In this document: piece by piece, positions 713 through 41,289 of the stretch
Numbering within the stretch: the stretch's first letter is position 1
How the letters are laid out: each line of letters opens with the position of its first letter
Assembly (NCBI RefSeq): GCF_003634585.1
Contig: NZ_RBLG01000001.1
Span: 496,001 to 560,000, forward strand
Source: Gillisia mitskevichiae
Lineage (GTDB): Bacteria; Bacteroidota; Bacteroidia; Flavobacteriales; Flavobacteriaceae
Direction: 5' to 3'
DNA length: 64,000 nt
Position numbers and translations under genes: made by a program
Notes under the pieces: generated by a model
Told to the model about the DNA's origin: nothing
Database searches by the model: none
The model's input: the letters and a program-made list of their open reading frames with translations, nothing else

Positions 713-2506
713 ATGGAAACTACGCCCCTAAAAATACAATTACAAACACTTCCCGACAGTCCGGGAGTTTATCAATATTACGATAAGAATGGTAAAATTC
801 TTTACGTAGGTAAAGCGAAGAATCTCAAGAAAAGAGTGTCCTCTTACTTCAATAAATCTCATGATAGCCATAGAATAGATGTGATGGTGAAGAAGATCCG
901 TGATATAAAACATATTGTGGTGAACTCTGAAACCGATGCGCTGTTGTTGGAGAATAATCTTATTAAGAAGTATCAGCCACGATTTAATGTGATGTTAAAG
1001 GATGATAAAACCTATCCTTGGATCTGCATAAAAAATGAGCGGTTTCCTCGAGTGTTTCCCACTAGAAGATTAATAAAAGATGGTAGCGAATACTATGGAC
1101 CATTTACCAGCTTTAAAACTGTAAATACCTTGTTGGATCTTATAAAAGGCCTTTATCAATTAAGAACCTGTAATTATGATCTTGCTGAAGAAAAAATAAG
1201 AAACGGAAAGTATAAAGTTTGTTTAGAATATCATTTGGGGAATTGTAAAGGCCCTTGCGAAGCACTGCAGGGGGAGAAAGAATACAACGAGAATATTGAA
1301 GCGATCCGAAATATAGTTAAAGGGAATTTTAAAGAGTCTTTGCAGTTATTTCATCAGCAAATGAGAGATCATGCAGATAAAATGGAGTTTGAAGATGCCC
1401 AAAGGATCAAAGAAAAGATCCATGTATTAGAAAATTATCAGTCTAAATCTACTGTGGTAAATCCAAAGATCAATAATGTAGATGTGTTCTCTATTGTAAG
1501 TGATGAAGGTTATGGATATGTAAATTTCTTACAGATCTCGCATGGAGCCATTATTCGTTCCCATACTATAGAGATGAAGAAAAAACTGGATGAGACGGAT
1601 AAAGAATTACTGGAACTTGGAATAATTGAAATAAGACAACGCTTTAGCTCTATGTCTAGAGAAATATATGTGCCATTTAAGGTAGATGTTGGAGAAGATA
1701 TTAAGATCACGGTACCACAATTAGGAGATAAAAAGAGTATTGTAGATCTCTCCCATAGAAACGCAAGGTATTACAGGCAGGAACAATTTAAACAAATGAA
1801 AATTGTAGATCCAGATAGGCATGTAAATAGGATCATGGCACAAATGAAGGAGGATTTGCGTTTAAGTGTGGAACCTAGACATATAGAATGTTTCGACAAT
1901 TCCAATATTCAAGGAACTAATCCAGTGGCTGCCTGTGTGGTTTTCAAGAATGGGAAAGCCAGTAAGAAAGATTATAGAAAATTCAATATAAAAACTGTAG
2001 AAGGGCCAGATGATTTTGCCTCTATGGAAGAAGTTGTATTCCGAAGATATAAACGATTGCTTAATGAAGATGAACCCTTGCCGCAATTAATAATTGTAGA
2101 TGGAGGAAAAGGACAACTTTCATCAGGAGTTAAAGCTTTAGAAGCATTAGGCTTAAGAGGTAAAATAGCGATCATTGGAATAGCAAAAAGGCTGGAAGAG
2201 TTGTATTATCCCGGGGACTCTATTCCTTTATACCTAGATAAAAAATCTGAAACTTTAAAGATCATTCAGCAACTGCGAAATGAAGCACATAGATTTGGAA
2301 TTACATTTCACAGAAATAAACGCAGTAGTGAGGCTTTAAATACAGAGTTAGAATCTATTGTGGGAATTGGAGATAAGACCGTTGTAGAATTATTGAAGCA
2401 ATTTAGGTCACTTAAGAGAGTAAAAGAGGCTACCTTAGAGGAATTAACACCCGTTATTGGACTTTCCAAAGCGAGTATTATCTATAATAAATATCATCCC
2501 GAATAA
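713..2506 (+). CDS. uvrC: UvrABC excinuclease subunit C
   Basis: UvrC makes the two incisions in nucleotide excision repair after UvrAB loading. The 597-residue product has an N-terminal GIY-YIG nuclease (LPDSPGVYQYY and ILYVGKAKNLKKR, about residues 13-95), a UvrB-binding UVR helix (MEFEDAQRIKEKI, about 215-250), the UvrC RNase-H-like endonuclease (IECFDNSNIQGT; LIIVDGGKGQL) and C-terminal helix-hairpin-helix repeats (IVGIGDKTVVELL). A GTG at 680 gives an 11-residue extension, but the ATG at 713 matches the normal UvrC start and is preferred. The stop is directly followed by the ATG of the patatin gene. Confidence 0.95.
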   Translation: METTPLKIQLQTLPDSPGVYQYYDKNGKILYVGKAKNLKKRVSSYFNKSHDSHRIDVMVKKIRDIKHIVVNSETDALLLENNLIKKYQPRFNVMLKDDKTYPWICIKNERFPRVFPTRRLIKDGSEYYGPFTSFKTVNTLLDLIKGLYQLRTCNYDLAEEKIRNGKYKVCLEYHLGNCKGPCEALQGEKEYNENIEAIRNIVKGNFKESLQLFHQQMRDHADKMEFEDAQRIKEKIHVLENYQSKSTVVNPKINNVDVFSIVSDEGYGYVNFLQISHGAIIRSHTIEMKKKLDETDKELLELGIIEIRQRFSSMSREIYVPFKVDVGEDIKITVPQLGDKKSIVDLSHRNARYYRQEQFKQMKIVDPDRHVNRIMAQMKEDLRLSVEPRHIECFDNSNIQGTNPVAACVVFKNGKASKKDYRKFNIKTVEGPDDFASMEEVVFRRYKRLLNEDEPLPQLIIVDGGKGQLSSGVKALEALGLRGKIAIIGIAKRLEELYYPGDSIPLYLDKKSETLKIIQQLRNEAHRFGITFHRNKRSSEALNTELESIVGIGDKTVVELLKQFRSLKRVKEATLEELTPVIGLSKASIIYNKYHPE

Positions 2507-4732
2507 ATGAAGAATTACCTGATACTTATTGCCATTTTACTATCCTTTTCAGGTTTTGCTCAGGATAAGGAAGAGGTGAAAGTAGGTTTGGTATTAAGTG
2601 GAGGAGGAGCGAAAGGTCTTGCGCATATTGGGGTTTTAAAGGTGATCGAGGAAGCGGGAATTAAAATAGATTACATTGGCGGAAGTAGTATGGGTGCTAT
2701 TATTGGTGGCTTATATGCTGCGGGTTATACCGCTCATCAGTTAGACTCTATTTTCCATGAGATCAACTTTAATATTCTTATTCAAGATAACGTTCCCAGA
2801 AGTTCTAAAACTTTTTATGAGAAGGAAGAAGATGAAAAATATGCATTAACATTACCCTTCGACAATTTTAATATTTCCTTTCCTTCAGGGCTCTCTAAAG
2901 GACAAAATATTTATAATTTAATGTCTAAACTCACTTGGCATTTAGGTGGAAATCAAGATTTTAGTAAGCTTCCAGTTCCTTTCTTTTGTATTGCGGCAGA
3001 TATTGAAACTGGCGAACAAGTTATATTGGAGAAAGGTTCTTTAGCAAAAGCAGTTTCTGCCAGTGGGGCTATCCCATCTATATTTAGTCCTGTAACTATA
3101 GATGGTAAAATATTAACAGATGGGGGAGTAGTAAATAATTACCCTGTTGCAGAATTAAGAAAACGAGGCGCAGATATAGTTATTGGGGTAGATGTTCAAG
3201 ATAGTTTAACAGACAGAAAGCACCTAAAAGGGGTTTTCGAAATACTTACCCAGATAAATAATTTTAGGACCATCGCACATATGGAAGAAAATATAGCATT
3301 AACAGATGTTTATATTAAGCCAAACATCAATGGATTTAGCGTGCTTTCATTTGAAAAAGGTTCAGCAATTATAGATTCTGGAGAGGTGGCAGCTAGAACT
3401 AAATTGAAAAATCTTAAACTAATTGCTTCAAAGCAAACCGGGGAAAGAAAACCACCTATAAAAGTAAAGAGGGTTGATACTATAAATATAGATGCCCTAG
3501 CAATAGAGGGAAATAGCAGTTACCCAAGAGCTTATATCTTGGGAAAACTAAATCTTAAATATGATTCTAATTATACCTTTGAAAATTTAACGGATGGAAT
3601 AAACAAACTCTCTGCAACCGGAAATTTCAATAAGATCAATTATAGTTTAACTCCCAAAAAAGATGCTTATACACTAGCTTTAAAACTGGAAGAAAGCCAA
3701 AGTAAGACCTTTTTAAGGCTCGCCATACATTATGATAATCTATATAAAAGTGGCGCCTTGATTAATATTACAAAGAAAAGTTCATTATTTACAAATGACG
3801 CAGCTTCTTTAGATGTAGTATTAGGGGATAATTTCAGATATAATTTTCAGTATTATATAGATAAAGGATATTATTGGAGTGTTGGAATAAAGTCCAGATA
3901 CAATACATTTAATAAGGGAATTCCATTTGATTTTGTTGATAGTTCCGCAGATGTAGACGGTATTGGAATTAATAATATTGAAGTAGATTATCAGGATTAC
4001 ACCAGTCAGTTTTATATAGAAACCCAATTTCAACAAGTATTTTCATTTGGTGTTGGTCTCGAGCATAAATTTCTGAAGGTTAGTACAGAGACCTTAGATA
4101 ATCTTTCTATGAGTGGGAACCCAAATGGGACATTTGAAAAAAGCAGTTATTATAGCGCGTTTGGATATTTAAAATTAGACAGCTTCGATAATAAACATTT
4201 TCCAACCAAAGGAGTTTATTTTGAAGGGGATTTTCATCTTTATGGATTCTCTTCAGATTATAATAACGATTTTGATGAATTCTCGATAGCCAAAGGAGCG
4301 GTAGGCTATGTCTTTAGTCCGTTTAATAAATTCACTACCAAAATATCTTCAGAAACAGGTTTTAGAATAGGGCAGGTAGGTCCTAATTCTTTAGATTTCT
4401 TTTTGGGAGGGTATGGGAACGATTTTATAAATAATTTCATTCCATTTTATGGTTATGATTTTATAAGCATATCTGGAGACAGTTATATAAAAGGGATGCT
4501 GGAATTGGATTATGAGATTTTCAGAAAAAACCATATAAGCCTTAGTGCGAATTTTGCGAATGTAGAGAACGATCTCTATTCTACTGGAAATTGGTTCTCC
4601 ACTCCAGATTATACGGGATATGCCATTGGTTATGGATTAGAAACATTTTTGGGGCCTTTGGAATTAAAATATTCTTACTCTCCGGAGATCAAACAAAATG
4701 AATGGTTTATTAGTATTGGATTTTGGTTTTAA
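2507..4732 (+). CDS. Patatin-like phospholipase with C-terminal Omp85-type barrel (PlpD-like, type Vd)
   Basis: This is a 741-residue secreted or outer-membrane esterase. A signal peptide (residues 1-19, ending FSGFAQ) is followed by a patatin domain with the oxyanion glycines SGGGAKG, the nucleophile elbow GSSMG (Ser61) and the catalytic DGG (Asp205). A POTRA-like segment (about 325-400, IDALAIEGNSSYPRAY) leads into a C-terminal 16-strand-type barrel ending in an aromatic residue (GFWF). This order matches type Vd autotransporters such as PlpD, in which a lipase is attached to an Omp85 barrel. The ATG abuts the uvrC stop with no gap, so the two are probably co-transcribed. The lipid substrate cannot be told from sequence. 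Confidence 0.88.
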   Translation: MKNYLILIAILLSFSGFAQDKEEVKVGLVLSGGGAKGLAHIGVLKVIEEAGIKIDYIGGSSMGAIIGGLYAAGYTAHQLDSIFHEINFNILIQDNVPRSSKTFYEKEEDEKYALTLPFDNFNISFPSGLSKGQNIYNLMSKLTWHLGGNQDFSKLPVPFFCIAADIETGEQVILEKGSLAKAVSASGAIPSIFSPVTIDGKILTDGGVVNNYPVAELRKRGADIVIGVDVQDSLTDRKHLKGVFEILTQINNFRTIAHMEENIALTDVYIKPNINGFSVLSFEKGSAIIDSGEVAARTKLKNLKLIASKQTGERKPPIKVKRVDTINIDALAIEGNSSYPRAYILGKLNLKYDSNYTFENLTDGINKLSATGNFNKINYSLTPKKDAYTLALKLEESQSKTFLRLAIHYDNLYKSGALINITKKSSLFTNDAASLDVVLGDNFRYNFQYYIDKGYYWSVGIKSRYNTFNKGIPFDFVDSSADVDGIGINNIEVDYQDYTSQFYIETQFQQVFSFGVGLEHKFLKVSTETLDNLSMSGNPNGTFEKSSYYSAFGYLKLDSFDNKHFPTKGVYFEGDFHLYGFSSDYNNDFDEFSIAKGAVGYVFSPFNKFTTKISSETGFRIGQVGPNSLDFFLGGYGNDFINNFIPFYGYDFISISGDSYIKGMLELDYEIFRKNHISLSANFANVENDLYSTGNWFSTPDYTGYAIGYGLETFLGPLELKYSYSPEIKQNEWFISIGFWF

Positions 4733-40019: not shown

Positions 40020-40093
40020 TCCTCCTTAGCTCAGTTGGTTAGAGCATCTGACTGTTAATCAGAGGGTCCTTGGTTCGAGCCCAAGAGGAGGAG
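40020..40093 (+). tRNA. tRNA-Asn (anticodon GTT)
   Basis: A complete cloverleaf can be drawn: acceptor TCCTCCT/AGGAGGA, D arm with AGCTCAGTTGGTTAGAGC, anticodon stem TCTGA/TCAGA with loop CTGTTAA (anticodon GTT), and T arm with GGTTCGAGCC. The discriminator is G and no CCA is encoded. Its 3' end overlaps the first copy of a 54-bp direct repeat. Confidence 0.95.
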
Positions 40094-40141
40094 CAAAACT
40101 AAGCCAGACAGTAATGTCTGGCTTTTTTGTTTTTAAGAATT
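40088..40141 (+). repeat. 54-bp direct repeat, copy 1 (tRNA 3' end plus terminator)
   Basis: It runs from GAGGAGC, the last nucleotides of tRNA-Asn, through the terminator hairpin (40101-40134) to AAGAATT. It is identical to 40512-40565, 424 nt downstream. Confidence 0.95.
40101..40134 (+). terminator. Terminator of tRNA-Asn
   Basis: AAGCCAGACA and TGTCTGGCTT form a perfect 10-bp stem with a GTAA tetraloop, followed by a T-rich tract. Confidence 0.9.
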
Positions 40142-40193
40142 GTTGAAAATCTTACGATTGTCTGTATCTTGATCTACTCTCAATAGATCCAAC

Positions 40194-40481
40194 ATGCATT
40201 TTGTTTACATATTATATTCTAATTTCTCAGATAAAAACTATGTTGGAGAAACTTCAAATCTTGAAATCAGATTAGATAATCATAAAAGTGGATTTTATAG
40301 TAATTCCTTTACTACAATTGCGAAGGATTGGGAATTGTTCTTTAAAATAGAATGCAAAAATGTTTCGCAGGCGAGAAAAATTGAAAAACACATTAAATCA
40401 ATGAAAAGCAGAAAATACCTTTTAAATTTGGGTAGTTCTCCAGAGATATCGGAACGTTTATTAAATACATATAATTCATGA
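40194..40481 (+). CDS. Single-domain GIY-YIG nuclease
   Basis: The 95-residue protein is one GIY-YIG domain: FVYILYS (GIY equivalent), NYVGETSNLEIRL (YIG equivalent and Arg) and a C-terminal helix with ARKIEKHIKSMKSRKYL. The compact type, related to UPF0213/YhbQ, is frequent in Bacteroidota. The gene lies exactly between two 54-bp direct repeats next to tRNA-Asn, so it looks like cargo or driver of a small insertion. Whether it cuts DNA is not known. Confidence 0.85.
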   Translation: MHFVYILYSNFSDKNYVGETSNLEIRLDNHKSGFYSNSFTTIAKDWELFFKIECKNVSQARKIEKHIKSMKSRKYLLNLGSSPEISERLLNTYNS

Positions 40482-40493
40482 AAGTTCGATCCA

Positions 40494-40511
40494 TCCCGAT
40501 AGCTATCGGGA
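40494..40511. repeat. 18-bp perfect palindrome
   Basis: TCCCGATAGCTATCGGGA is fully self-complementary and abuts the second 54-bp repeat. There is no T run, so it is not a terminator. It may be a repetitive extragenic palindrome or a cleavage/recombination site. Confidence 0.85.
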
Positions 40512-40565
40512 GAGGAGCAAAACTAAGCCAGACAGTAATGTCTGGCTTTTTTGTTTTTAAGAATT
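40512..40565 (+). repeat. 54-bp direct repeat, copy 2
   Basis: It is identical to 40088-40141, including the terminator hairpin (40525-40558). Just upstream, GTTCGATCC (40484-40492) resembles the tRNA T-arm GTTCGAGCC, so this copy may be the remnant of a second tRNA-Asn 3' half interrupted by the palindrome. Confidence 0.95.
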
Positions 40566-40707: not shown

Positions 40708-41289
40708 TTAACCGTGAATAGTTTCATGTTTACCATAACTTTTTATTAATTCCCCTTCAAATTCCACTAGTTCTTTCCAGCGGGAATCCACATCGATATC
40801 TTTTCCGTATTTACGTGCAAAGCTTATAAAAGTGGTGTAATGACCTGCTTCACTTATCATTAAATCATGATAAAATTTAGATAGTTCTGGATCGTTGATT
40901 TCTTTGGAAAGCAATTTGAAACGTTCACAACTTCTTGCTTCTATCATTGCAGAAAACAGGAGCCTATCTACCATAGAATTCAATCTACTGCCACCTTTGT
41001 TCATGAATTTATATAACTCATTAACATAGCTGTCCTTTCTCTCTCGCCCCAATTTAAAGCCTCGTTTTTTAATGATCTCATGAACCATTTCAAAATGTTC
41101 CAATTCTTCTTTTGCAAGTTCCAATAATTCTGTAACCAAGTCTGGATATTCAGAATTTAATGTGATAATAGTGATGGCATTGGTTGCTGCCTTCTGTTCA
41201 CACCAAGCATGATCGGTAAGAATTTCTTCTATATTGGATTCAACAATATTTACCCATCGGGGATCTGTTTCTAACTTTAGATGAAGCAT
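40708..41289 (-). CDS. miaE: tRNA-(ms2io6A)-hydroxylase
   Basis: The 193-residue protein is a ferritin-like di-iron hydroxylase that hydroxylates the isopentenyl group at A37 of certain tRNAs. The carboxylate and His ligands are visible in AKEELEHFEMVHEII, SAMIEARSCERFKLL and SEAGHYTTFISFAR, and DHAWCEQKAA is a typical early helix. It has its own -7 box (41304-41311, minus strand TATCTTTG). Confidence 0.92.
   Translation of the reverse strand: MLHLKLETDPRWVNIVESNIEEILTDHAWCEQKAATNAITIITLNSEYPDLVTELLELAKEELEHFEMVHEIIKKRGFKLGRERKDSYVNELYKFMNKGGSRLNSMVDRLLFSAMIEARSCERFKLLSKEINDPELSKFYHDLMISEAGHYTTFISFARKYGKDIDVDSRWKELVEFEGELIKSYGKHETIHG

Follow-up and report, generated by a model that had tools for sequence, protein, structure and literature searches.

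A GIY-YIG nuclease gene between tRNA-Asn repeats in Gillisia mitskevichiae probably belongs to a large family of minimal mobile elements that target tRNA genes in Bacteroidota

The window, by which we mean the whole 64,000-nucleotide stretch of Gillisia mitskevichiae DNA that was analysed (RefSeq assembly GCF_003634585.1, contig NZ_RBLG01000001.1, positions 496,001 to 560,000 of the forward strand), holds an intact tRNA-Asn gene with its terminator, followed by a small GIY-YIG nuclease gene, a palindrome and a second copy of the tRNA 3' end and terminator (Table 1). An earlier note made from the DNA letters alone had described these features, and every one of them was recovered in place. The two 54-bp copies are identical and lie 424 nt apart, an exact repeat that is far beyond chance; the nuclease gene is the sole open reading frame (ORF) of at least 50 aa between them (PF01541, E 1.4e-12); and both the perfect 18-bp palindrome TCCCGATAGCTATCGGGA, which we take as the right end of the unit, and the T-arm GTTCGATCC were seen on reading the sequence. 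Scanning with Rfam returned the tRNA alone above the gathering score and nothing else. Because a tRNA-Asn anticodon-arm pattern allowing at most 2 mismatches matched the genome only once, the unit appears to sit at the only tRNA-Asn gene. The next gene downstream (window positions 40711-41289, minus strand) encodes a MiaE-family tRNA hydroxylase (PF06175, E 2.8e-45), and several relatives (L080, L081, L083) have another gene behind the tRNA.

Table 1. Features of the tRNA-Asn locus, in window coordinates.
Feature	Position	Strand	Basis
Intact tRNA-Asn (GTT), landing-site gene	40020..40094	+	ARAGORN; Rfam RF00005, 69 bits
54-bp direct repeat, upstream copy: last 7 nt of the tRNA plus intrinsic terminator (stem 40101-40124)	40088..40141	+	Sequence, terminator fold
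Inter-repeat sequence; with one repeat copy it makes the 424-bp unit missing at empty sites	40142..40511	+	Empty sites in G007, G004, G002, G005, G008
GIY-YIG nuclease ORF, 95 aa, type A; Y5, Y16, R26, H30 and E64 present	40194..40481	+	Pfam, conservation, structure model
Pseudo-tRNA-Asn remnant (T-arm GTTCGATCC)	40484..40492	+	Sequence; longer homologues in L020, L021, L022, L114, L116
Perfect 18-bp palindrome TCCCGATAGCTATCGGGA, abutting the second repeat	40494..40511	+	Sequence, fold
54-bp direct repeat, downstream copy: tRNA 3' end plus terminator	40512..40565	+	Sequence

Together, the Pfam match, the catalytic Tyr, Arg and Glu residues and the modelled fold place the ORF product in the GIY-YIG superfamily, whose members considered here split by sequence into two subfamilies, type A (window-like) and type B (YhbQ-like). 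The structure model (mean pLDDT 91.3) has a GIY-YIG fold followed by two C-terminal helices, and the nearest solved structures are UPF0213/YhbQ-like proteins (1zg2, profile search, E 6.3e-6), Slx1 (6seh, TM 0.61) and I-TevI, with a best Foldseek E of 1.9e-3. Of these, Slx1 is a branched-DNA nuclease of eukaryotes, and the UPF0213 proteins are cellular, with no tRNA linkage that we know of. Comparison of sequences indicates that the active site is conserved and under purifying selection: among 152 distinct type A proteins R26 is found in all 152, H30 in 151, and Y16 and E64 in 150 each, with Y5 also near-invariant, and dN/dS is about 0.2 (roughly 0.15-0.3) in the least saturated pairs. The window protein matched nothing in 50,697 phage records nor in PHROGs, and the plasmids, phages and viral contigs searched likewise gave no match, so that no vehicle between cells is known.

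To be a minimal mobile or homing-like unit, as the earlier note had suggested, the insert should be missing from the same site in some relatives, and such empty sites exist. The rseP/tRNA-Asn locus was obtained from 13 of 16 Gillisia genomes, 11 of them with the tRNA-Asn, and these 11 comprise three filled sites (the source genome, G001 and G010), five clear empty sites, one relic with a hairpin-bearing pseudo-tRNA and no gene (G003), one site with an integrase-type ORF (G006) and one that could not be scored as the contig ends there (G012). The empty sites carry a terminator homologous to that of the upstream repeat copy, and the four genomes nearest by RseP (91-95% identity) all lack the gene at this position. 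Mixed alleles were also found at the tRNA-Val/murF locus, obtained from all 16 genomes: five have the gene within the stretch and G009 has a unit farther off, six are empty (the source genome included), two have no tRNA-Val, and two are relics, with a gene fragment in G007 and only a tRNA 3' end and terminator in G002. Present and absent alleles at the same site, as expected of a homing gene, thus occur at both tRNA-Asn/rseP and tRNA-Val/murF.

The integrase-type ORF that follows the tRNA-Asn in G006 (L079, 3313-4308; PF13102, PF17293) is another element using the same site, and it lends something to the idea that the GIY-YIG unit is itself the scar or cargo of a conventional integrase-borne island. 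tRNA 3' ends are classic integrase sites, and integrase-borne integrative elements enter within the tRNA gene and bring a substitute for its 3' end, a likeness that the GIY-YIG units share. The units differ in having no integrase, with a single ORF of at least 50 aa in 424 bp, which does not make an integrase island, in recurring as tandem arrays, in a repeat that extends through the terminator, and in a hairpin at the junction, and we therefore regard passenger status as very improbable.

Extending the comparison beyond Gillisia revealed type A genes in 86 of the 249 family genomes and in 162 of the 395 phylum genomes (cut-off E 1e-14), and most of those inspected lie beside a tRNA. Among the best-scoring matches listed, which were not a random draw, blastn found tRNA-like sequence no more than 350 bp away at 113 of 122 deduplicated type A places and none at the remaining 9, and at the level of units the blastn matches listed for type A are always on the gene's strand, 127 upstream and 126 downstream. 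ARAGORN, which calls intact tRNAs of normal isotype, placed one within 300 bp of the gene at 99 of the 122 listed places (51 upstream only, 41 downstream only, 7 both). The partners of the relatives' GIY-YIG genes are Asn, Val, Met, Phe, Pro, Ser, Arg, Asp, Ala, His, Leu and Lys tRNAs. A second sample, reached by another route and drawn from Flavobacterium, Saprospiraceae, Chitinophaga, Niabella, Mucilaginibacter, Marinoscillum, a Paludibacteraceae MAG and a MAG labelled Candidatus Dojkabacteria, showed the linkage in 49 of 52 loci, two of which are Gillisia genomes already counted, and the best loci of a phylum scan showed it in 25 of 27. These counts carry the caveats that the blastn tRNA library was derived from the same loci that it tested and that profile A1 was made after the tRNA link had been noticed in several of its rows. 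As a control, type B units had tRNA-like sequence in 0 of 19. The expectation that further GIY-YIG genes would be found with tRNA repeats and the same palindrome is thus amply met, hairpins at the junctions included. Paralogues without tRNA repeats, which the note would have counted as refutation, do occur, three of them in the source genome, but only in the other subfamily, type B. The Dojkabacteria-labelled MAG holds a type A gene with pieces of tRNA-Ser (L264), which is either spread outside Bacteroidota or a misbinned contig.

The units share an anatomy, which usually runs from an intact tRNA through the gene to a pseudo-tRNA in which one arm is swapped for a TCCCGA...TCGGGA hairpin, and on to a copy of the tRNA tail and terminator. 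Where an intact tRNA lies upstream (51 listed units, Ser and odd tRNA calls excluded), the 3' part of that tRNA is copied after the gene in 43, and the point at which the copy starts is typical of the isotype: position 46 for Val (7 of 16), mostly 43-45 for Arg, mostly 41 for Met, 62 for Phe, and mostly 51 or 67-69 for Asn. A hairpin with a stem of at least 5 bp stands directly 5' of the copy in 33 of the 43 units, against a mean of 3.6 and a maximum of 9 in 200 shuffled sets, and these 33 hairpins include 17 of the form TCCCGA...TCGGGA and 6 of the form CCCCGA...TCGGGG. Because tRNA sequence from further 5' precedes the hairpin, the downstream piece is a pseudo-tRNA with a replaced arm, and the gene's stop codon often falls within tRNA sequence (TAGCTCAG, TAATCAG). 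The suggestion that the window's T-arm is what is left of a tandem tRNA-Asn copy gains support here, since relatives hold a longer downstream piece, GACTGTTAATCAGAG followed by the hairpin and then TTGGTTCGAGCC, that is a pseudo-tRNA-Asn. The order is reversed, with pseudo-tRNA, gene and then intact tRNA and with the 5' part repeated, in most Arg, Pro and Ala places and in some Asp and Met places. Tandem arrangements occur in 34 of the 122 best-scoring type A places listed, with arrays of 5-7 near-identical units in three single-contig genomes (G210, G176 and G580), and the ends of several units coincide with contig ends.

Pseudo-tRNAs were also seen in other settings. In Gillisia limnaea (G001; L085, about 2930-3350) a pseudo-tRNA-Asn of about 141 bp that contains CCCGATAGCTATCGGG is repeated three times in tandem upstream of the real tRNA, without any GIY-YIG gene, and ARAGORN calls two of the three as tRNA-Asn. 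Tandem hairpin-bearing pseudo-tRNA-Pro copies stand between a GIY-YIG gene and the real tRNA-Pro in L065 (about 1730-2130, reverse strand). Downstream of the genes in L027 (1730-1807) and L029 (1729-1805, reverse strand) the pseudo-tRNAs are called tRNA-SeC (TCA), and they are a likely source of false selenocysteine tRNA annotations.

How far the repeat runs past the tRNA bears on the origin of the flanking sequence. Among the 43 units it extends at most 10 nt in 15 and at least 32 nt, with terminators alike, in 28 including the window; in these 28, in-place duplication and conversion are equally possible. Terminators vary between species and match within a locus (the window and G010), which points to continued recombination between the repeats. 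In two cases, chosen because the two terminators differ, the filled allele could be compared with empty ones, and the terminator on the pseudo-tRNA side is that of the empty site (G015 against the source genome, with AAAAGCCTTCCATTTATGGAGGGCTTTTTTT identical; G008 against G014 and G011), whereas the sequence behind the intact tRNA, in both G015 and G008, is unlike that of empty sites. The claim that insertion regenerates the tRNA terminator was thus half right: in these two cases the copy after the pseudo-tRNA is indeed the host's, and it is the sequence behind the intact tRNA that came with the element. Host terminator behind the pseudo-tRNA is what would be predicted by insertion inside the tRNA gene with the element supplying a replacement tRNA 3' end.

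Much of this could in principle arise without mobility, from a resident gene beside a tRNA whose repeats arose when a tRNA tandem slipped or underwent unequal crossing-over, and whose loss by recombination left the empty sites. The alike terminators in 28 of 43 units would fit such a history, as would the tandem tRNA copies that are common at the Gillisia tRNA-Asn and tRNA-Val sites, and most Gillisia Val-site proteins cluster together on the protein tree, such that spread there may be largely vertical with losses. The wider tree speaks against it. Over 119 type A proteins (best-scoring matches listed; 92 columns, many open forks) the tRNA isotype changes 26 times, compared with a mean of 78.0 on shuffling and with none of 200 shuffles as low, a comparison that tests clustering only. 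Twelve isotypes are involved and the lineages track isotype across genera, while several lineages occur within one genome or genus (genus code g19, for example, has Asn, Pro, Arg, Val, Met and Asp); the Pro and Ser labels are partly mixed because some units lie between tRNA-Ser and tRNA-Pro. A resident gene would also leave unaccounted for the junction hairpins, the occurrence of the intact tRNA on either side of the gene, the two cases in which the host terminator lies beyond the insert and the patchy occurrence (86 of 249 genomes), and we consider it unlikely while not dismissing it.

The hairpins themselves raise a different possibility. The 16-bp core of the window palindrome, CCCGATAGCTATCGGG, has 13 copies in the source genome (L005-L017), compared with 0 for a reversed control pattern, and most of these copies replace the loop of a REP-like hairpin, that is, TGTCA plus a stem with a loop of GAGC...GTCGA or similar, much as the hairpin replaces an arm in the pseudo-tRNAs. 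The three type B paralogues of the source genome (C1:1003241-1003552, C1:796303-796608 and C2:956194-956478; L002, L003 and L004) also lie among REP-like hairpins. Across type B loci (including L309-L338), a TGTCA hairpin lies within 300 bp in 26 of 30 and on both sides in 16, at a density of 3.93 per kb, compared with 0.29 farther away, 0.16 at control loci and 0.11-0.51 for permuted tags. A rule with 6-bp stems found only 3 of 30 and was too strict; the rule with 4-bp stems and permuted-tag controls was picked after reading the sequences, so that the result is a description more than a blind test. A simpler motif search, also written after seeing examples, gave 13 of 19 type B units and 5.18 versus 0.30 per kb. 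The same simple motif is absent from the window and occurs in just 1 of the 181 type A units, which leaves type A outside the REP link, and TGTCA hairpins at type A loci (19 of 181) are near the permuted-tag controls (13-18 of 181).

These patterns allow that the GIY-YIG enzyme uses the hairpin as a terminal signal for transposition, comparable to IS200-type enzymes on REP hairpins, with the tRNA arm serving as the target hairpin. Such a process would suit a hairpin that lies exactly at the junction of element and host, the exchange of TCCCGATAGCTATCGGGA for REP-like hairpin loops elsewhere in the source genome, the sister subfamily's place among REP-like hairpins and a nearest fold that includes the branched-DNA nuclease Slx1. 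GIY-YIG enzymes hydrolyse, however, and we know of none that joins strands; type A does not carry the TGTCA hairpins, and several different hairpin sequences occur at its junctions. We hold hairpin-linked transposition to be doubtful, if worth keeping in view. The resemblance to REPs and RAYTs, in short palindromes linked to a small nuclease gene and hairpins at element borders (PMC3733652), stops at the enzyme, since RAYTs are HUH tyrosine enzymes of the IS200/IS605 type (PMC3733652) and the sole ORF of our units is a GIY-YIG gene; neither GIY nor TGTCA turned up in a term search of that source. It is possible that type B is the nuclease partner of Bacteroidota REPs. More tentatively, and with the balance of our judgement against it, types A and B might form one hairpin-recognising GIY-YIG system that moves hairpin-tipped units, B within REPs and A within tRNA arms by isotype. 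If that were true, it would describe a class of mobile elements under 500 bp driven by a GIY-YIG nuclease, and the missing enzyme of the Bacteroidota REPs.

With these alternatives weighed, we favour, with moderate confidence, the reading that the window unit belongs to a large family of minimal mobile elements that target tRNA genes on Bacteroidota chromosomes and are homing-type and isotype-specific, cleavage and movement being inferred. What sequence data can establish for this reading is the isotype lineages, the same-strand tRNA linkage, the tRNA and terminator repeats, the arrays, the junction hairpin, the filled, empty and relic alleles and the conserved active site; cleavage, excision or transfer by the units has not been observed. 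Each element would consist of one small GIY-YIG gene and its own piece of tRNA gene with an inserted hairpin. By analogy with the phage enzyme SegB, the nuclease may cut within the tRNA gene or close to it, and the anatomy suggests that the break would then be repaired by homologous recombination with a unit that ends in tRNA sequence, the 3' part on the left and the 5' part with the hairpin on the right. A crossover 3' of the hairpin would give an intact tRNA upstream and a hairpin pseudo-tRNA downstream (Asn, Val, Phe and others), and one 5' of it a pseudo-tRNA upstream and an intact tRNA downstream (most Arg, Pro and Ala). tRNA function would be retained either way, conservation of tRNAs would permit homing across species, and repeated cutting could build tandem arrays. 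Recombination between the repeats might in turn excise the unit, which would fit the relics and empty sites. Both polarities, the tandem arrays and the presence of the host terminator on the side of the hairpin would thus have a single break-repair explanation. The hairpin is probably there either to remove the target from the pseudo-copy or as a structured recognition site of the nuclease.

Two features sit less easily with homing. In the filled allele the pseudo-tRNA is disrupted by the hairpin and an intact tRNA is still present, such that an enzyme of the classical homing kind would be expected to cut the allele that carries it, unless its target spans a junction or cutting is tolerated. 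In the window unit the 3' tRNA piece is moreover only 7 nt, too short in its present form for homing by tRNA homology, so that either the terminator supplies the homology or the unit has decayed.

The closest precedent, SegB of phages T4 and T6, is a free-standing GIY-YIG homing endonuclease encoded beside tRNA-Tyr that cuts inside tRNA genes at the motif RAWTSGAAC (PMC13096335), which by our own reading is the reverse complement of GTTCSAWTY, the T-loop. Its activity is required for tandem tRNA-segB repeats to form by recombination, and these repeats show microhomology between the tRNA 5' end and the gene 3' end (PMC13096335). The type A units resemble it in a GIY-YIG gene adjoining tRNA genes and in tandem repeats of tRNA plus nuclease gene. 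They differ in that SegB is phage-borne while type A has no phage, plasmid or viral-contig matches, in lineages that follow isotype where the SegB source reports no isotype preference, and in a hairpin pseudo-tRNA and terminator repeat that the sections consulted do not describe for SegB (PMC13096335). SegB also suggests a host-serving role, in which the extra tRNA pieces would serve as decoys for tRNA-cleaving toxins or buffer the tRNA dosage against them, and the nuclease would drive the amplification. Phage T6 is protected from the tRNA-cleaving Septu system by SegB-driven amplification (PMC13096335), and tandem arrangement is frequent (34 of 122 listed places). We give this little credence, since pseudo-tRNAs lacking a normal anticodon or T arm, with no intact tRNA added, do not raise dosage, and the only match to a defence library was a weak PADLOC match to a 2TM effector.

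On the homing reading, the units join the free-standing GIY-YIG homing genes linked to tRNAs, and there is a fair prospect that they form a class of their own. No description of such tRNA-linked GIY-YIG units was found in the open-licence literature, which is not proof of absence, and they are apparently an undescribed, widespread family of minimal mobile elements that land in tRNA genes. The units would explain why some tRNAs are misannotated, as in false tRNA-SeC and extra tRNA-Asn calls, and why contigs end at tRNA genes. Being compact and with a tRNA-isotype preference, the enzyme, its cleavage being inferred, would also be a testable site-specific nuclease. If the homing reading is right, an overlooked selfish element made of one nuclease domain and a piece of tRNA is present in about two in five of the Bacteroidota genomes sampled. 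Its homing gene would use a highly conserved sequence both as target and as homology arm and could for that reason cross species, and the arrays would be natural chromosomal counterparts to SegB-driven tandem amplification.
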